Of a stretch of DNA of 64,000 nucleotides, positions 2,267-9,809 are shown piece by piece. The notes beneath the pieces were generated by a model. It saw only the letters and a list, made by a program, of their open reading frames with translations, searched no databases and had not been told where the DNA came from. Position numbers and translations under genes: made by a program. The DNA comes from Candidatus Tumulicola sp. (GTDB lineage Bacteria; Vulcanimicrobiota; Vulcanimicrobiia; Eremiobacterales; Eremiobacteraceae): NCBI GenBank assembly GCA_035601835.1, contig DATNNM010000014.1, positions 1-64,000 on the forward strand. Reading direction: 5' to 3'. Each line of letters starts with the position of its first letter. The first letter of the stretch is position 1.

Positions 2267-2306
2267 GTCACATTTGCCCGTCAGGTGCTATCTTACCAAC
2301 AGATGA
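2265..2306 (+). CDS. 13-codon leader ORF coupled to the first pilin gene
   Basis: An ATG at 2265, six bases after GAGG, opens a 13-residue frame (MSHLPVRCYLTNR). Its TGA stop overlaps the ATG of the pilin gene in the ATGA arrangement at 2303-2306. The pilin ATG has no Shine-Dalgarno sequence of its own, so ribosomes finishing this leader could re-initiate there. Nothing suggests a function for the peptide itself. It is a plausible translated leader, but a chance ORF of this length cannot be excluded. Confidence 0.35.
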   Translation: MSHLPVRCYLTNR

Positions 2307-2761
2307 TTACTAAAACTTGGGGCCCCCGGCCCTTTGGTGCCGCTAGGGCTTTTACCATAATCGAAGCGCTGATCGCAATCGTCTTGGTTGTGTCGGCTGT
2401 GCTCGGACTCGTGGCTATCGTGCCGGCGACGATCGGCGGTACGATGCGCGACAGCCAGCGCATGCAGGCGATCGACGTCGGTCAGCAATACCTTGACAGG
2501 ATTCGGGAATACGCCACCACCAACGGCAAGATCACGGGTTTGCCGGCCGCGCCAAGCGTCGCTGTGGATGCAGGTCTATCGAACCAAGACAGCACGATCC
2601 AAGCAGCGAGCCCCGGCGTTTTCACGATCACGCCGAATTGTACGGCAGCTCCTAACGCCGTGTCGGGCCTCGAGTGGGACTGCGTCGTCACGGTCACGTG
2701 GACCGAGGCTTCTGAGAATCGGAGCGTCAGCGTTGAATCGTACATCGTCTCGCAGAAATAA
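2303..2761 (+). CDS. Type IV pilin-like protein (PilV/GspI-type minor pilin)
   Basis: A 152-residue protein with a short charged leader followed by AFTIIEALIAIVLVVSAVLG, the classic class III prepilin signal. Cleavage would fall before F, with Glu at position +5 of the mature protein, and the hydrophobic helix would insert in the membrane and pack the pilus core. The residue before the cleavage point is Ala where Gly is usual, which prepilin peptidases sometimes tolerate. I chose ATG 2303 because a leader ORF ends on it; a GTG at 2285 would add six residues with no better ribosome site. It is the first of three pilin-like genes that probably build a type IV pilus or pseudopilus tip. The peptidase and motor genes are not in the window. 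Confidence 0.72.
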   Translation: MITKTWGPRPFGAARAFTIIEALIAIVLVVSAVLGLVAIVPATIGGTMRDSQRMQAIDVGQQYLDRIREYATTNGKITGLPAAPSVAVDAGLSNQDSTIQAASPGVFTITPNCTAAPNAVSGLEWDCVVTVTWTEASENRSVSVESYIVSQK

Positions 2762-3404
2762 GTATTCGCGCGCGTTCAGCCTCGCTGAGCTGCTGACGGT
2801 TATTGTTATTTTCGGCCTGCTCAGCACGCTGGGCACGCTGGTCATCGCGCCGCTCATGTCGCAGCCGAACCGCCAGCAGGCGAAGGTCGACACGATCCAG
2901 GCAGCGACCCGCACGATGTACAGGATCGAGCGCGACCTGCGCATGACGTCACCCTCCGCGGTGTACGCGTGCACGTATCCGGCACCTTCGACCTGCACTT
3001 CGCCCAGCGTGATGACGTCGACGGCCGTCCTGGTGATCGCGACGCCTCGAGTGAATGGCAACGGCCAGCCGAAGTGGGACCCGACGAACGGGCAGCCCGT
3101 CTGGCAAGGCTTCAATGTGTACTGGCTTGCTGCGGATCCCAACGACGCGACGAAAACGAATTTGATGTTCAAGTATACCACCGCAACCATCCAGCCAGGC
3201 ACGTTCACGGGCGCCGACAACAGCTCGGTGAATACCGCGATCAGCGCCACCGACGCGGAGCTGCTCGCAACCGGCGTGACCGATCTCCAGACCTATATGG
3301 ACTCGACCAACAGCATCGTGGGGTTCAAGTTCAAGGCGCAAGCCACGGACGGCGGGCACACGAATGAAACGACCCTTCAGAGCAACGTCAACACCCGCAA
3401 CTAA
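2733..3404 (+). CDS. Type IV pilin-like protein (PilW/PulG-like minor pilin)
   Basis: A 223-residue protein starting at TTG 2733, chosen because GGAG lies 8 bases upstream and the frame has no other start that close to the leader. The prepilin motif is AFSLAELLTVIVIFGLLSTL after a basic leader, with Glu+5 present and again Ala instead of Gly before the cleavage point. The start sits 29 bases inside the previous gene, so the two are translationally linked. The C-terminal 170 residues are a Ser/Thr/Asn-rich soluble domain with little similarity that I can name. Likely a minor pilin or pseudopilin acting with its neighbours. The long in-frame extension upstream of the TTG is out-of-frame reading of the previous gene. 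Confidence 0.7.
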   Translation: MNRTSSRRNKYSRAFSLAELLTVIVIFGLLSTLGTLVIAPLMSQPNRQQAKVDTIQAATRTMYRIERDLRMTSPSAVYACTYPAPSTCTSPSVMTSTAVLVIATPRVNGNGQPKWDPTNGQPVWQGFNVYWLAADPNDATKTNLMFKYTTATIQPGTFTGADNSSVNTAISATDAELLATGVTDLQTYMDSTNSIVGFKFKAQATDGGHTNETTLQSNVNTRN

Positions 3405-3423
3405 CAGTTTGGAAGAGAACAAA

Positions 3424-4611
3424 ATGATGTCGAAAACATTCGCCTCGCCTCGGGGAAACCGGGGCTTTGCCATGATCTTCGCGCTCCTCGTGATCGTCAT
3501 ACTCTTGCTCGTCGGACTGGCCATGCTCGCCAACGCGCAAAACGTCGCCGGAAACGCGCGCAACACGGAAGTCAAGACGCTCACCTGGGATGCAGCGGAA
3601 GCCGGGCTCAACGCCGCGATGGACAAGCTCGATGTGGCGATCGTGAGCACCACGCCGGGCAACGGGACGCTTAAGAACACCTACACCTTCGCGTATACCA
3701 TCACGCCCAACTTTTCGGGCGGCATCGGCAAGCCCGGCACGGACTCCACCGGCGCGGCGATGACCATTCCTCCGGGCATGGGGTACGTGCAAAGCACCGG
3801 GACGAGTCCGGACGGCCTGCGCACCGCGATCGTCGAAGCCATCATCCAGCCGACCGGCATCAATCAACAGTTTCCCAACGATGCTATGGACGCCGGCGGC
3901 GACGTGCAAGGCAACTGGAACCACAAGATCGGCATCACCGAATGCCATCCAGGGAAAGACGACGCGACCGTGCACGCGAACGGCAACATCACCGCGACGG
4001 TAGGTTTTGATCAAGGCACCTCCACGGCATCGGGTACTACCGACACGCTTAACCCATCGCCCGGAGGCGTCAACACCCCGGTAGTGACGCTGCCGACGGC
4101 TTCTATGGGCTCGTTTGTCGCTGACGCGAAGACGATCGCGCAGGCCGGCGGGACCAGCCTGTACGTCCCGAGCAGCGGCTCGCTGCCGACGACCTTTGCC
4201 TGCCCGCTATCGGCTCCTACATACGGTTGCATCATCTTCTATGATGCAGCCTTGCACATCTCCGGATTGCAGGACTTCAACTACACCGGACACGTCGTCG
4301 TGGTCATCAACGGCGATTACAGCTCCACCGGCAATTCGGGATTCACGCTTCAGTCCGGCCAGCAGAGCGTGTTCGTGGTGAACGGCAATGCTGACATGGG
4401 CGGCAATAGCGACACCGGCGCGCTGTATTGGGTCAAGGGCGATACGACGATGCACGGAAACGGCAACATCTTCGGCGCTCTCGTGACCGGCGGCAACGCG
4501 ATCTTCGCAGGCGGCGGCAGCGGCGGAGGGTTCCAGTGCGATCCCAACGCGCTCGGCCTCACGCTGAAGTTCCCGGGCAAAGTGATCATCAAGAGCTACG
4601 CCGAGTATTGA
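3424..4611 (+). CDS. PilX-like pilus assembly / surface protein
   Basis: A 395-residue protein starting at ATG 3424, with GGAAGAG six bases upstream. The N-terminal GFAMIFALLVIVILLLVGLA is the PilX/PilX_N type of prepilin-related membrane anchor, followed by an alpha helix whose AAEAGLNAAMDKL matches the conserved post-helix region of that family. The rest is Gly/Ser/Asn/Thr-rich with repeated GN, GG and NG turns (for example VVVINGDYSSTGNSG), suggesting a beta-solenoid ectodomain exposed on the cell surface. It is the third gene of the pilin-like unit and is followed by a strong terminator. PilX-type proteins prime pilus assembly or mediate cell contact in other bacteria; that role here is inferred. 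Confidence 0.7.
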   Translation: MMSKTFASPRGNRGFAMIFALLVIVILLLVGLAMLANAQNVAGNARNTEVKTLTWDAAEAGLNAAMDKLDVAIVSTTPGNGTLKNTYTFAYTITPNFSGGIGKPGTDSTGAAMTIPPGMGYVQSTGTSPDGLRTAIVEAIIQPTGINQQFPNDAMDAGGDVQGNWNHKIGITECHPGKDDATVHANGNITATVGFDQGTSTASGTTDTLNPSPGGVNTPVVTLPTASMGSFVADAKTIAQAGGTSLYVPSSGSLPTTFACPLSAPTYGCIIFYDAALHISGLQDFNYTGHVVVVINGDYSSTGNSGFTLQSGQQSVFVVNGNADMGGNSDTGALYWVKGDTTMHGNGNIFGALVTGGNAIFAGGGSGGGFQCDPNALGLTLKFPGKVIIKSYAEY

Positions 4612-4633
4612 AATCGAAAAAGCTCGGACGAAG

Positions 4634-4668
4634 AAGAGGCGAGCCGATTGCGGCCCGCCTCTTTTTCT
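4634..4668. terminator. Bidirectional intrinsic terminator
   Basis: AAGAGGCG (4634-4641) pairs with CGCCTCTT (4656-4663). An inner GCC/GGC pair extends the stem, and a T-run follows. On the other strand an A-run becomes the T-run, so the hairpin can end both the rightward pilin unit and the leftward recombinase unit that converge here. Confidence 0.8.
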
Positions 4669-5587
4669 ATCCTGAGACCTCTAATTGTTTATTATGTTCA
4701 GAAGAGACATCGGCGTAGACCTGGGTCGCGGGTGGGCCCTCGTGGCGGAGAAGCTCCTGAACGTTGATGGGACTGACACCGCGCTCTAGAACGTGCACCG
4801 CAAAGAAACGTCTGAGCTTGTGGGGGCTTGCCTTTACCCGGAGCTTGCTCGTCTTGTAGATCCGGTTGAAAATTTCCCAAACATGCCGCGGACTGAGGCG
4901 TCTACGCGTGCGGCCTGAGAAAAGCGCGCTGTCGAGGGACCGTGGCCGCACACCTAGGTAGGTTCTAAGTGCGTCCGCCGTGGTCTGATTAAAGACGACC
5001 AGCCGCTGCCTCCGGCCCTTTCCTATCACTCGCATGGTCCGCGACTCTAGATCGACATCCTCGACGTTGAGCGCCGCTATCTCAGCGCGCCGGACGCCGG
5101 TGGCGTAGAGCATCTCCATAATGGCCCGATCCCGGGACTTCAACCACTGGACCCCATATTCGGGACTCGTCCGCAGCAGGATGGACGCCTCCCGTTCGTT
5201 TAGGACGCTTGGTGTGAGCTTGCCTCGAACTGGACGCCCAACATCAGCAGCAGGGTTGTCCTCACGCTTGCGCACGCGACCCAAGAAGCCGTAAAAAGAG
5301 CGTAATGCGGCAAGTTTGCGTCGAATCGCCGATGGCTTGTATCCTCTGGTCCCGGTCAACTCTTGAACGAATTGTCGCACCTGCCTGGTGGTCGCCGTGC
5401 TTAATCGCGGCCAAAGCTTGCCATGTGGAGATTCATTCACCGGAGCGCCGGCGAGGAAAGCTCCGAACAACTCCAAGTCTCCGATGTATGCGGAAATCGA
5501 CAACGGGCTTCGTCCGGCGCCACATAAGCTTGCGGCCCACTCGAGGATGATCGGATCGGTTGGGAATACGCTTTTTGCTCGAGGCAT
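4667..5587 (-). CDS. Tyrosine recombinase, XerC/XerD-like (second recombinase of the unit)
   Basis: A 306-residue phage-integrase-family recombinase. The N-terminal SAM-like core-binding domain (about residues 10-100) is followed by the catalytic domain. All catalytic positions are visible: Arg in YATGVRRAEI, Lys in GKGRRQR, His and Arg in HKLRRFF, His in LLRHEG and the nucleophile Tyr in TQVYADV. The second box reads HKLRR rather than the usual HTxRH, and LRH replaces LGH, so it is a diverged member. Its ATG overlaps the TGA of the gene upstream (TGATG), giving tight coupling. Together with the recombinase at 6231-7286 it could act as a XerC/XerD-like heterotetramer on the nearby dif-like site, or move an element. 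Substrate unknown. Confidence 0.85.
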   Translation of the reverse strand: MPRAKSVFPTDPIILEWAASLCGAGRSPLSISAYIGDLELFGAFLAGAPVNESPHGKLWPRLSTATTRQVRQFVQELTGTRGYKPSAIRRKLAALRSFYGFLGRVRKREDNPAADVGRPVRGKLTPSVLNEREASILLRTSPEYGVQWLKSRDRAIMEMLYATGVRRAEIAALNVEDVDLESRTMRVIGKGRRQRLVVFNQTTADALRTYLGVRPRSLDSALFSGRTRRRLSPRHVWEIFNRIYKTSKLRVKASPHKLRRFFAVHVLERGVSPINVQELLRHEGPPATQVYADVSSEHNKQLEVSG

Positions 5588-6234
5588 CAGGCGCTCGAAG
5601 CTCCCTCTTCGCGTATTGCAGTATCAGGAGCGGCCGGTGCGTAGAAGAGGTACAGCCGTGTCGAACCGTATGGCCATCTAGCCAGCCCGCCCTCTGAGAA
5701 AATATGTGCGTAACTGGTGCCGACGCTTGTAAGGCCCACTTCAAGGGGTAACTCTCCCCTAGCAAGGAGCAACGCGTCATTCCGACAAGGCGTCGAAGCA
5801 ACGTGTGAAACGTGGGATTGGAGTTTCATCGGGTCAAACCACTTAAAGAAACCGTCGGAGTCGCTCAGGCCACCCCAAAACTCGGCTTGGCAGCGCACGT
5901 GACGGCCATCGGATCCCGCGAGATGAGTCAATGACGAAAGAATCGCGCTATTCCTCGAAAGATCGCGATCTGAACCGCACTCGTATCCGATTTCGAGGAC
6001 TGCGTGATACACGTTCCCGGTCAGCAGTGCCGACCAGAGCAAAGCGAAGCCGTAGGCATCGTACACGTCGTATCTGTCACTGTAAGTCTGCACGAGCGCA
6101 TCGACCCACGCGCGATCAAAGCGCCCTTGATTGAGCTGGATCTTTAGGCGCCAGATATCCGAGAGAAGCTTCGGGTCGTCGGACAATCTGCGATCCGCAA
6201 GGTCTTGAAGCGATCTTTGAAAGACGTTGCTCAT
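5587..6234 (-). CDS. Unrecognised protein between two tyrosine recombinases
   Basis: A 215-residue soluble protein with no family that I recognise. No signal peptide, membrane segment or recombinase signature is visible: the Arg/His/Tyr boxes of its neighbours are absent. The first 100 residues look helical, with a DRYDVYDAYGFALLWSALL stretch. The end is rich in small residues and may be flexible. It overlaps the upstream recombinase by 4 bases (ATGA) and the downstream one by 1 base (TGATG), so all three are made from one message in fixed ratio. That suggests a partner of the recombinases: an accessory DNA-binding factor, a directionality factor or a cargo gene. Its codon choice looks less GC-biased than the housekeeping genes around it, consistent with transfer. 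Confidence 0.6.
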   Translation of the reverse strand: MSNVFQRSLQDLADRRLSDDPKLLSDIWRLKIQLNQGRFDRAWVDALVQTYSDRYDVYDAYGFALLWSALLTGNVYHAVLEIGYECGSDRDLSRNSAILSSLTHLAGSDGRHVRCQAEFWGGLSDSDGFFKWFDPMKLQSHVSHVASTPCRNDALLLARGELPLEVGLTSVGTSYAHIFSEGGLARWPYGSTRLYLFYAPAAPDTAIREEGASSA

Positions 6235-7286
6235 TTGCGCACGCCGCGTCTTCGCAGCACGATACCTTGGTTGTCGGCGCGGTCGCGTGGGTGATGCTCT
6301 TCGTAGCTCTTGCGAACGTGATCCTGAGTCATCTCGGCGTAGATCTGCGTGGTTTGGATGCTTTCGTGGCCCAAGAAATCCTTGATCGTCATCAGATCGA
6401 CTCCGCTCTTATGGAGATGGGTCGCTACGGAGTGGCGCATGGTATGCGGCGTGACCTTTCCCTCAAGACCGCTCAGTTTTACGTAAGCCGCGAAAATGTG
6501 GCCGACTTGCGGGTAGCTTAGCCGGCGGCCCTGCCGACTCACGAAAAGTGCCCCCTCCCGGCAGCGAGGTCGAACTCTCAGGTATGCTTGCAGTGCGTCC
6601 GAAGTGGCATGATTGAAGAACACGATTCGCTGCTTATTGCCCTTACCAATCACGCGGATGGTGCGGTCCGTAAAGTCGACGTCGCTGACGCTGATTCCGA
6701 CGAGTTCTGCGCGCCGCATGCCGCTGGCATAGAGAAGCTCCAGAATCGCGATGTCTCGCCTCCAACGCAGTTCGGGTTGGCCGGCCTCCGGGCGCGTGCC
6801 GATCAACCTCATGACATCTTCGACCGGGATCGCCTTCGGCAGCCGCTTCGGCAAGCGAATGTTTTGGACGTCGGCGGCAGGGTTCTCGCTCCGATATCCC
6901 TCGCGTTTCAGGTAGGCGAAGAAGCGGCGCAACACCGCCAGCTTCCGCCGGATGGCGGCCTCCTTATACCGCAGCGTGCCGAGATGCATGATGAATCTCC
7001 GCACGGATGAAACGGTCGCCTTCTGGAACAGCTGTGTAAACGGGCCCCTATATGGCCGGCCGTCGGCAGCCGCCGGGTCGCGCCCTTGTAGGAAGGCGCC
7101 GAACACCTCTACGTCACGCGCGTATTCACGCGTGGTTCGCGGGCTGCGCCTCGAGCTGGCCACTTCCTGCACGAATTCCATGACCAGCGGATCGGCCGGC
7201 GTTGAATCGCGGCATCGGCCATCAGGCCTTCCCGTGTAGGCGTTGATCAACGGTTTCGGCTTCTCGTCCGGACCTCGTTTCGGCAC
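6231..7286 (-). CDS. Tyrosine recombinase, XerC/XerD-like (first recombinase of the unit)
   Basis: A 351-residue tyrosine recombinase starting at GTG 7286, chosen because AGAAGGGG lies a few bases upstream; a GTG at 7310 would lie inside the palindrome at 7303-7330 and has no ribosome site. The catalytic set is complete and canonical: Arg in YASGMRRAEL, Lys in GKGNKQR, HTMRH, LGHESIQTTQ and the Tyr in IYAEM. It carries about 30 extra N-terminal residues compared with housekeeping Xer proteins and a basic tail (LRRRGVRK). It is the first gene of the three-gene overlapping unit. Two recombinases plus a third coupled gene recall recombinase-in-trio elements, but here the middle gene is not a recombinase. 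It could be the host Xer system or the engine of a small island. Confidence 0.87.
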   Translation of the reverse strand: MPKRGPDEKPKPLINAYTGRPDGRCRDSTPADPLVMEFVQEVASSRRSPRTTREYARDVEVFGAFLQGRDPAAADGRPYRGPFTQLFQKATVSSVRRFIMHLGTLRYKEAAIRRKLAVLRRFFAYLKREGYRSENPAADVQNIRLPKRLPKAIPVEDVMRLIGTRPEAGQPELRWRRDIAILELLYASGMRRAELVGISVSDVDFTDRTIRVIGKGNKQRIVFFNHATSDALQAYLRVRPRCREGALFVSRQGRRLSYPQVGHIFAAYVKLSGLEGKVTPHTMRHSVATHLHKSGVDLMTIKDFLGHESIQTTQIYAEMTQDHVRKSYEEHHPRDRADNQGIVLRRRGVRK

Positions 7287-7302
7287 AGCACCCCTTCTAG
7301 CG

Positions 7303-7330
7303 ATTAGCACAAATACTAGTTTGTGCTAAT
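7303..7330. other. 28-bp dif-like recombination site (11-6-11)
   Basis: ATTAGCACAAA, then a six-base centre TACTAG, then TTTGTGCTAAT: the arms are perfect inverted repeats of 11 bp. This 11-6-11 layout is that of Xer dif sites, where each arm binds one recombinase and strands are exchanged at the edges of the centre. The centre is not symmetric, so the site has a direction. It begins 17 bases upstream of the recombinase start codon. It could be the substrate of the two recombinases, an operator for self-control, or both. The rest of the 7331-7447 gap holds nothing I can name. Confidence 0.6.
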
Positions 7331-7447
7331 TGGCCTCGGGATTCGAAAACTCCTGGCTTTTGCTCGTGGTCTAGGACAATTGCGACTAGTCCCAGCTTGC
7401 TCTTCTACTGCAGGGGCGATCTGGTCTTGAAGTCTCGGGCCCTGTGT

Positions 7448-7966
7448 TTAGAGATAAGGTATGAGTTGGCCGACGTACTTGTCTTGGTTGGGGAGGCTGC
7501 GCAGCACGATGCGGATCACCTGCTCGGGGTAGCCGGATTCCAGCGTGATCGTAAAGGCGGTAAAGCAGTCGTAGGTATCGTCGCAGCCCCAAAACAGGAA
7601 GTTCTGGTCGCTGAGATAGAGCAAATGTTTCATCAGACCTGTCTGGTCTTTCGCCTTGAGGACGTTGATGTAACCGCCGTTGTAGTGCGGGTAGACGCGA
7701 AAGCCGATGGTCTGTTGGTCGGTCACGCTGATCACGATTTCCATCGACTGCGCGTATTTCAATCCCGTCGTCAACGATCCCACGAAGTTGTACGGGTTCT
7801 TGGTGCTCTGGTGAAACGTCACGCCCGCGTCGCCTGGCCCATAGGTCGTGAGAGTCGCTCGGAGGGCCTCTCGCGTCGCGTCGCGCGACGCGTCTGCGAG
7901 CGCAGGGAGCGCCGGCAGCGCCGAGAGCACAACAGCCAAGAGCACAAGCTTGACGACTTTATACAT
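7448..7966 (-). CDS. Secreted protein, YbjN-like fold possible
   Basis: A 172-residue protein. ATG 7966 is chosen because it opens a clean signal peptide (MYKVVKLVLLAVVLSALPAL, then ALADA for cleavage) and AAGGA lies 10 bases upstream. The mature part is about 150 residues of alternating strands and helices, with two nearby cysteines (WGCDD and YDCFT) that may pair in the periplasm. The end, with TLESGYPEQVIRIVLRSL and a final hydrophobic stretch, resembles the YbjN/bacterial sensory regulator fold, but the match is weak and I do not assign a function. It stands alone, leftward, between the recombinase unit and the regulator-protease operon. Confidence 0.65.
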   Translation of the reverse strand: MYKVVKLVLLAVVLSALPALPALADASRDATREALRATLTTYGPGDAGVTFHQSTKNPYNFVGSLTTGLKYAQSMEIVISVTDQQTIGFRVYPHYNGGYINVLKAKDQTGLMKHLLYLSDQNFLFWGCDDTYDCFTAFTITLESGYPEQVIRIVLRSLPNQDKYVGQLIPYL

Positions 7967-8057
7967 CGCTCCACGTTCCTTATATGGCAGGTGCCACGCC
8001 TGAATTGACGGCGCGACCGAGGGCAGGCTTCCAGCGCGCAGGCGCCGTTCCTTCACG

Positions 8058-8270
8058 TCACTTGCGGTCGAATTTGCCCCAGTCAAATCGGGTGACGTCG
8101 CCTGAGACGTGCAGCACGCTGCCGTCAAGATTCACGAGGACGCGGACCGGATCGTTGCCGCGCAATTCAACGAGAATAGCGCCGGTTCTGGTCGTCGCGC
8201 CGACCGCAAAACCGAACTTACGGAACTGCTTGATGACCTCTTTTTGCTTGTCGAACTTCTTCTCGGGCAC
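8058..8270 (-). CDS. Small protein of unknown function (70 aa)
   Basis: A small basic protein that begins right after the LuxR-type regulator gene ends. I take GTG 8270, which lies 20 bases past that stop; longer in-frame starts would run back into the regulator. The sequence starts PEKKFDKQKEVIKQFRKFGF, a charged helix, and continues as short strands (GAILVELRGNDPVRVLV, then GSVLHVSGDVTRF), so a compact helix-plus-sheet domain is likely. No signal peptide or membrane helix. It is the last gene of the operon with two HtrA-like proteases and the regulator. Function unknown; the start is uncertain. Confidence 0.5.
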   Translation of the reverse strand: MPEKKFDKQKEVIKQFRKFGFAVGATTRTGAILVELRGNDPVRVLVNLDGSVLHVSGDVTRFDWGKFDRK

Positions 8271-8289
8271 GACGCTAAAGAGTGTTCGC

Positions 8290-8931
8290 CTAGAGCATGA
8301 TGAGCCCTTGGCGGGCTCCGCGCGCCACGGCTTCGGTTCGGCTGGCGGCGCCAAGTTTGACGAAGATCGAGCCGACGTGGAATTTCACGGTATGCTCCGA
8401 GATGCCCAGGCGCGTGGCGATCGTCTTGTTGCCGAGCCCTTCGGCGAGCATCCGGAGCACGTCGATTTCGCGCGGTGTGAGCGCTTGACCGGGCGCCTCT
8501 AGGACGGCTGAACTGCTCGCAGGGACGAGCGTGGCGGCAGCGTCGGGGTGCACGACGATAAGACCCGCGGCGACCGCTTCGATGGCCGCGCTGACCTCCG
8601 CCGCACCCGCATCACGGGGCAAGACGCCGCGCGCTCCTGCGCGCAGCGCCTGCGCCGCGGTGCCGGGCACCGGATGATCGGCAAGCACAATGACCCACGG
8701 CGCTCCGCGGCGGTCTCCCGCGCCATCTTTGGCGCGCTGCACGTGGTGCTCGATCGCCTCGAGATCGCCGTCGAGCAGCACCACCTCGGCGGGCAACCGA
8801 TCGCCGCCGTTGCGGCGGTCAGGCACATCCGGCCGCCGCTCGACGAGCTCAAGCGCCGGGTTGGCGGCGATCAGCTCGCGCAAGCTCCGCTGAATCACGC
8901 TTGAGTCGGAAGCGATGGCTACGCGCGTCAC
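8290..8931 (-). CDS. Response regulator, receiver + LuxR-type DNA-binding domain
   Basis: A 213-residue NarL/FixJ-type regulator. The receiver domain (about residues 1-120) keeps the phosphorylation site Asp54 in VVLLDGD, but the acidic pair near residue 9 is reduced to one Asp, and the usual switch Lys is Arg (GVLPRDAG), so control by phosphorylation may be atypical. The C-terminal helix-turn-helix is clear: LTPREIDVLRMLAEGLGNKT followed by ISEHTVKFHVGSIFVKLGA. GTG 8931 overlaps the stop of the protease gene (GTGA). No sensor kinase is adjacent, so its input is unknown. It probably controls its own operon or a stress response linked to the proteases. Confidence 0.85.
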   Translation of the reverse strand: MTRVAIASDSSVIQRSLRELIAANPALELVERRPDVPDRRNGGDRLPAEVVLLDGDLEAIEHHVQRAKDGAGDRRGAPWVIVLADHPVPGTAAQALRAGARGVLPRDAGAAEVSAAIEAVAAGLIVVHPDAAATLVPASSSAVLEAPGQALTPREIDVLRMLAEGLGNKTIATRLGISEHTVKFHVGSIFVKLGAASRTEAVARGARQGLIML

Positions 8932-9809
8932 GCTGCTGCGGCCCCCTCGGACTCGGCCCGCAAACGAAACGTGTGTTGCACGGTCGAGCCGGCACGTAAG
9001 ATGTCAAGGGCTACAACGTCGCCCGGTTGCGCCTCGCCCACGGCCGCTTGGACCGAATCCGGCGCATCGATCGGCTTGCCCGCGATGCCGACGACGACGT
9101 CACCCGGAAGCGCTCCCCCTTCTTCTGCCGCGCCTCCGCGAGCGACTTCAAAGATCATCAGGCCAAGGGTCGGCCGATCGCCGCGCAACCGAACAGCCAC
9201 GGGGCCGGTCGTCAGGCCGAGCTGCGCGCGCGCGTCGCCGCCGCGCAGAAAATGTTCGATCGCCGCGCTCGGCACCGCGACGGCGAGTCCGCCGTAGATC
9301 ATGCTGTTGATGCCCACCACGCGCCCTGCGGCGTCCGCCAGCGGGCCGCCGGAGTTGCCGGGCGCGATGCGCAGGTCCGCCTGAATCCAGCGTCCGGCCC
9401 CGCGAGCGTTGCCCGTGTCGTGAATGATCCCGGCCGTGATCGCGCCGACGAGACCGAGCGGATTGCCGGCAGCTAACGCGAGCTCTCCCACCCGCAGCGT
9501 CGAGGAGTCCCGGATCTCGGCCGGTCGCAAGCCGGTCGCGTTCACCTCGAGAGCGGCGATATCGCGCCGAGCGTCTGAAGCGGTCACGCGTGCCTCAAAC
9601 GTCCGGCCATCGGAAAGCTCGACGCGCGCGCGGCCGCCGCGAGCCACGACGTGGGCGTTCGTGACGATCACGCCGTCGGCGCGCCAAATCACGCCGGATC
9701 CGCCGCCCGAGCGCGGCGCCATCACCTGGACGGTGCTACGGCGCAGCCGATCGGCGACTTCGGCCAGGTCGCGGTTTAAGATTCCGCCGGTGTCGATCAT
9801 CGCGCTCAT
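8928..9809 (-). CDS. HtrA-like trypsin-fold serine protease with PDZ domain (second of pair)
   Basis: A 293-residue S1C-family protein. The triad is complete: His53 in VTNAHVV, Asp in RRDIAALEV and Ser in APGNSGGPL. A PDZ domain follows (about residues 200-285; GGALPGDVVVGIAGKPIDAP). ATG 9809 is chosen because it overlaps the TGA of the upstream protease (ATGA). Unlike DegP or DegS, there is no signal peptide or membrane anchor, so the protein should stay in the cytoplasm unless exported otherwise. It lies between a paralogue and a LuxR-type regulator. The pair could form mixed oligomers that degrade damaged protein. Family firm, location and substrate inferred. Confidence 0.85.
   Translation of the reverse strand: MSAMIDTGGILNRDLAEVADRLRRSTVQVMAPRSGGGSGVIWRADGVIVTNAHVVARGGRARVELSDGRTFEARVTASDARRDIAALEVNATGLRPAEIRDSSTLRVGELALAAGNPLGLVGAITAGIIHDTGNARGAGRWIQADLRIAPGNSGGPLADAAGRVVGINSMIYGGLAVAVPSAAIEHFLRGGDARAQLGLTTGPVAVRLRGDRPTLGLMIFEVARGGAAEEGGALPGDVVVGIAGKPIDAPDSVQAAVGEAQPGDVVALDILRAGSTVQHTFRLRAESEGAAAA

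Follow-up and report, generated by a model that had tools for sequence, protein, structure and literature searches.

In the XerS/difSL and XerH/difH systems, a described hallmark is a single Xer gene located beside its site (PMC5357621), and in Coxiella the only Xer is encoded on a plasmid, beside the plasmid dif (PMC9765430). The locus analyzed here lies in a 64,000-nt stretch of Candidatus Tumulicola sp. DNA (the window, i.e., the whole stretch studied), the genome of which consists of 18 contigs. It comprises three coupled genes, rec1, mid, and rec2, and a dif-like site (Table 1). In our view, the trio is probably a variant of the Xer/dif locus in which mid, from an undescribed family, is a putative accessory component, rec1 is foreign, and rec2 is native. 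It is the predicted chromosome dimer resolution (Xer/dif) locus of the window genome.

Table 1. Features of the trio locus, in window positions.
Feature	Coordinates	Strand	Remarks
rec1, Xer-type tyrosine recombinase, 351 aa, horizontally acquired type	6231..7286	-	all 40 invariant Xer columns kept
mid, 215-aa protein, undescribed recombinase-associated family	5587..6234	-	
rec2, Xer-type tyrosine recombinase, 306 aa, native lineage type, diverged	4667..5587	-	31/40 invariant columns kept, catalytic residues intact
ATGA overlap, rec1 stop / mid start	6231..6234	-	
TGATG overlap, mid stop / rec2 start	5585..5589	-	
mid residues 72-200, conserved C-terminal alpha/beta domain	5635..6021	-	invariant N95, D127, E165, G167, R186, W187, P188, Y189
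dif-like site ATTAGCACAAA-TACTAG-TTTGTGCTAAT	7303..7330	.	perfect 11-bp arms, 6-bp centre, 28 bp

The sequence-only reading of this DNA had described two tyrosine recombinases flanking an unrecognised gene, and of the three minus-strand ORFs only rec1 and rec2 indeed matched Pfam and NCBIfam models (Phage_integrase at E 3e-41 and 1e-33, respectively; XerC/XerD as the top NCBIfam models for both). Neither of them has lost a catalytic residue (R, K, H-x-x-R, H, and Y). The reported ATGA and TGATG start/stop overlaps were borne out at 6234-6231 and 5589-5585. The middle protein, said to have no recombinase boxes, gave zero matches in Pfam, PHROGs, and NCBIfam (E up to 1); whether it belongs to a known, unrelated family was looked up in this way, and it falls outside all the libraries searched. 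The rec1 open frame extends to 7310, and its start is most likely the GTG at 7286, judging from the putative ribosome site AGAAGGGG just 5' of it. The GC3 values of mid (0.61) and rec2 (0.645) are below those of the neighbour genes outside the trio (0.76-0.84). Between the end of rec2 and a convergent gene ending at 4611, positions 4635-4664 contain a GC-rich hairpin and then a T run, an arrangement that resembles a terminator. The genes adjoining the Xer locus at 2285-4611 encode pilin-like N-terminal hydrophobic segments, with weak TadE/Tad matches.

The palindrome at 7303-7330, absent from the earlier reading, precedes the start of rec1 by 17 nt. Its arms are identical and perfectly symmetrical, and a search allowing up to 3 mismatches found it as the sole copy in the genome. 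We infer that it is a dif, on which rec1 would act.

For comparison, 60 relatives of the same family or class were analyzed. One strong Xer match was detected in 56 of them (split over two contigs in G004) and two in G055 only; no Xer was found in G001, G010, and G059. The window genome has two, rec1 and rec2, side by side. From 250 bp upstream to 90 bp inside each xer start, we sought 28-bp sites that had the core AAA-C.....-TT and whose arms matched at 6 or more of their 11 positions. A dif-like site was present just upstream of xer in 26 of the 39 genomes, the window genome counted; this number is partly fitted because the core was written after the first sites had been seen, and the control rate of 0.007 expected per region, taken from the rest of the loci, is not fitted. 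The core motif revealed no site near xer in 13 of the 39 genomes, and a scan for palindromes with 11-bp arms without the core motif gave little enrichment upstream of xer. Since sites of the same format adjoin xer in so many genomes, this class appears to use single-Xer/dif modules like XerS/difSL. The comparison thus shows the norm in this bacterial class, one Xer gene directly behind its own predicted 28-bp dif-like site. The papers searched contained no account of dif in this lineage.

The arms of these sites were of the form ATTAGCACAAA/TTTGYGCTAAT for the rec1 type, GTATCATGAAA/TTCTGNGATAC for the rec2 type, and ACTTCCCCAAA/TTTGGGGAAGT for a third type. In the closed genome of G014 (3,508,363 bp), dnaA is located at 137 and xer at 1,693,789, in the terminus region opposite the origin, where cumulative GC skew has a broad maximum close by; the stretch upstream of this xer contained no recognised site. 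Within one family, the sole Xer occurs in three types with differing dif arms (G002, G003, G009, G012, G006, G007, and G008; loci L077, L043, L079, L078, L069, L036, and L033), and several of these Xers adjoin the same neighbour genes (families F6, F7, and F8), as if Xer-dif modules were swapped in place. The window genome also encodes a third, distant tyrosine recombinase, L047 (G000:C11:453290-453922), about 31% identical to rec1, with a palindromic sequence of its own in the start region (CGTCAATGTAT-CTTATG-ATATATTGACT).

The two recombinases of the trio belong to different Xer lineages. In the rpoB tree, the window genome joins G004, G011, and G013 (100/98); each of these three has a single Xer, of the rec2 type, as do G007 and G008 of the same family. 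As the nearest genomes by rpoB have the rec2-type Xer only, rec2 is regarded as native. In the Xer tree, the rec1 type clusters with G006 from the same family and with G027, G056, and G054 from another one (100/100), and this grouping across families points to horizontal movement of the rec1 type. The rec2-type dif was found once each in G004, G008, G011, G013, and G050, against a background that is not zero (one match in G006 in the reversed control), and was not found in the window genome. At the columns that are invariant in other Xers, rec1 retains 40 of 40 residues and rec2 31 of 40 (9 lost); at nearly invariant columns, rec2 retains 52 of 67 vs. 65 of 67 in G007, G008, and G011. The rec2 branch is long (0.93). 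Altogether, the lineage, dif, and column data suggest that an Xer arriving together with its dif drove out the native dif and that rec2 stayed as a fast-changing third gene. This gene would now encode a specialised second subunit or else be a relic on its way out, and may retain a role.

In a tblastn search, plasmids of Streptomyces and Thermobispora gave weak matches to mid (E 1e-6 to 1e-4), which align with it over the full length, with 26 invariant residues over five sequences. Further scans brought the family to about 27 homologues, and almost all of these come from phage-plasmids of actinobacteria or from viral contigs. With both the window protein and L112 left out of its construction, a profile recovered mid at E 2.5e-26 among 884 window frames and had zero matches among the reversed frames. 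No homologue was present in any of 395 other actinomycete species, and the window's own class yielded one more, in G095 (L112). On its chromosomal contig, this gene (G095:C22, 6333-7019) follows a regulator-like gene at a distance of 44 bp; genes resembling glmM and rsgA are nearby, and the contig ends before any recombinase. A candidate homologue in G019 (E 0.006) was rejected, as it sits in a frr/pyrH/tsf-like gene cluster without a recombinase. The idea that the gene found after xer in several relatives (a DUF4097 protein, F4) had given rise to mid as a diverged copy was also dismissed, the Pfam family being different. The papers searched contained no account of the mid family.

In our own tally of 28 distinct mid loci, a recombinase is directly beside mid at 23 and within 700 bp at two more (L083 and L096); the three loci without an adjacent recombinase are L090 and L091 (one 1.8 kb away) and L112 at its contig end. 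Genes overlapping by 4 bp occur as tyrosine recombinase then mid (pFP4, L093, L104, and L107), as mid then tyrosine recombinase (L141 and L143), and as mid then degenerate recombinase (pSAM1, L088, L095, and L102). The two genes are divergent at L099, L108, and L109 and convergent at L155. On pCQ4 the trio appears again, as recombinase, mid, and degenerate recombinase; the full trio with two Xer genes was seen in the window genome only. A single ATGA overlap, taken alone, is ordinary; the coupling in the trio is held to exceed chance because the 4-bp overlaps between mid homologues and recombinases recur across unrelated phage-plasmids. As to whether relatives share the coupling, a point on which the sequence-only reading had staked its interpretation, the answer is divided: close relatives lack both the trio and mid, and distant phage-plasmid relatives have the recombinase-mid coupling. 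In phage-plasmids of Streptomyces, degenerate tyrosine recombinases with an incomplete catalytic set are encoded directly 3' of mid (L081 6618-7451, L084 6485-7690, L088 6618-7448, and L095 6606-7439). Upstream of the phage-plasmid operons, dif-like palindromes were noted in 4 of 20 cases vs. 0.4 expected, the best being those of L141/L143 and L107; this small excess is suggestive only.

The partner recombinase is not always of the tyrosine type. At L106 (by a 4-bp overlap), L152, and L154, mid is coupled to serine recombinases (Pfam Resolvase, E 2e-44, 5e-44, and 3e-25, respectively), and the mid tree places two of these serine-linked loci, L106 and L152, within a 100/100 clade together with the tyrosine-linked L100, L103, and L104. 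That the coupling persisted while the partner enzyme changed its chemistry is our strongest evidence for a function of mid in site-specific recombination in general. Pairing with both kinds of enzymes makes a general action on DNA or on the complex more likely than one enzyme-specific contact.

The fold of mid was modelled with AlphaFold2 (pLDDT 86.8, and 92 for the C-terminal domain of the homologue L143). Foldseek alone gave no match under E 0.001 in PDB or BFVD. With the L143 domain, VIA-align returned PD-(D/E)XK folds, as read from the titles, in 13 of 15 rows (rows 1-13; Z 2.6-4.0), headed by Hjc 1gef (Z 4.0, rmsd 3.2, 77 aligned); the other domain rows included 2wcw, 2wiw, 2wiz, SPARDA, SwaI, and the Prp8 endonuclease-like domain. 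The whole mid gave few rows, with Hjc, SPARDA, and HinP1I among them, and no tyrosine recombinase appeared among the rows listed. Given the low Z values, the PD-(D/E)XK likeness is taken as a lead, the modelled C-terminal domain weakly resembling this fold. The invariant D127 and E165 match the positions of its acidic residues; the active-site-like motif is ExG, G167 replacing the canonical K in every aligned homologue, and the invariant R186 is a candidate substitute for the lysine. A sequence-profile comparison of mid with Hjc by hhalign revealed no link. Serine recombinases form no Holliday junction, so a junction role suits mid poorly, and a general action on the site DNA is preferred.

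Mid is seen as most likely a recombination accessory protein, with an inferred biochemistry. At the native Xer locus, an Xer of foreign type (rec1) has settled together with its predicted dif; the native dif is gone, and the native Xer (rec2) survives as the third gene of the operon, with mid in between. In the mechanism that we propose, rec1 would perform the strand exchange as a homotetramer on this dif with its perfectly symmetrical arms. Mid, translated from the shared message, would be an accessory factor acting on DNA at the site or close to it, for instance by helping synapsis, setting directionality, or clearing failed intermediates. Of the interpretations offered earlier, that of a new accessory factor is probably right, mid being no recombinase and lying outside the described families of the libraries searched; that of a variant Xer system fits well.

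Several other explanations were considered. Mid may be passenger cargo, a small nuclease-like protein of defence, competition, or plasmid maintenance that merely travels on mobile DNA alongside recombinases and came to lie by chance in an Xer operon of which rec2 is a decaying relic. The rarity of the family, its residence mostly on phage-plasmids, the low GC3 of mid and rec2, the invariant residues lost from rec2, and the three mid loci with no adjacent recombinase would all agree with this. We nevertheless regard it as unlikely, though far from negligible: the translational coupling to recombinases is repeated, in both gene orders, and was retained across the change from tyrosine to serine partners, and the catalytic residues of rec2 are intact. 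Much less credible is a repressor operator of the operon, rather than a recombination site, at 7303-7330. Operators are typically palindromic, this palindrome lies within the probable promoter region, so close to rec1, and the operons of L141, L143, and L107 likewise start with palindromes; an operator would hardly account for an 11-6-11 format that is fixed while the arms vary and track the Xer type, for the conserved core, or for the one copy per genome, as with XerS/difSL and XerH/difH.

The trio could also be suspected of being a mobile element of the RIT, strand-biased circularizing element (SE), or GInt kind, or one integrated at dif (IMEX), as it has two recombinases with a third coupled gene and the rec1 type has spread horizontally. 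Among the fold matches listed for mid there is no recombinase, in contrast to the recombinase-like fold of SE Tfp and GInt GinC (PMC10214605), and mid is not a recombinase of the RIT kind. The region 3300-9500 contains no flanking or end repeats, the genome has the single dif-like site (within 3 mismatches) instead of the two flanking ones of an IMEX, and rec2 is of the native type; hence the new mobile element that the sequence-only reading had envisaged was abandoned, and we hold this origin to be very improbable.

Returning to the variant Xer/dif locus, a farther-reaching version of this reading is put forward tentatively, at somewhat less than even chances: mid would represent a new class of accessory proteins, probably with a nuclease-like fold, serving both tyrosine and serine recombinases, and the operon would be a single-Xer system turning into a two-recombinase one, in which an invading Xer and its dif took over while the resident one was retained and became specialised. 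As a rule, an accessory factor in site-specific recombination works with one particular enzyme. If one protein is coupled to two recombinase families of unrelated chemistry, both would seem to share a need, for example control of the site or handling of recombination products, and no description of such a need was found. An essential housekeeping system would moreover be exchangeable, Xer and dif moving as a module. With invader and incumbent Xer in one genome, the origin of two-recombinase Xer systems becomes testable.

Compared with known systems, mid resembles PD-(D/E)XK nucleases such as Hjc in the weak fold match of its homologue's C-terminal domain and the comparable placing of the invariant D and E, but has ExG in place of ExK and no sequence similarity to them. 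As a multi-gene recombinase operon, the trio is akin to RIT, GInt, and the gamma-mobile-trio (GmtY/GmtZ). The third protein of RIT and GInt is, however, a recombinase or has a recombinase fold, whereas mid is unmatched to recombinases in three libraries, and the NCBIfam model of the gamma-mobile-trio, like all others, fails to match it. With SE (intA-tfp-intB-srap) the trio shares a pair of catalytic tyrosine recombinases that flank a coupled third gene, but Tfp is larger and has a recombinase-like core, whereas the 215-aa mid has another predicted fold, and the trio lacks inverted ends and srap (PMC10214605). Like XerC/XerD/dif, it combines two related recombinases with an 11-6-11 site; unlike there, the two genes lie side by side and stem from separate single-Xer lineages, and the arms are symmetrical, with no unlike half-sites. 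The plasmid Xer/dif of Coxiella provides a precedent for mobile Xer/dif modules (PMC9765430). As in XerS/difSL, XerH/difH, and the Legionellales XerL, an Xer-type gene adjoins a dif-like site, but in contrast to these single-recombinase systems, two Xers of different lineages and an unrelated gene are joined here in one operon with one dif.
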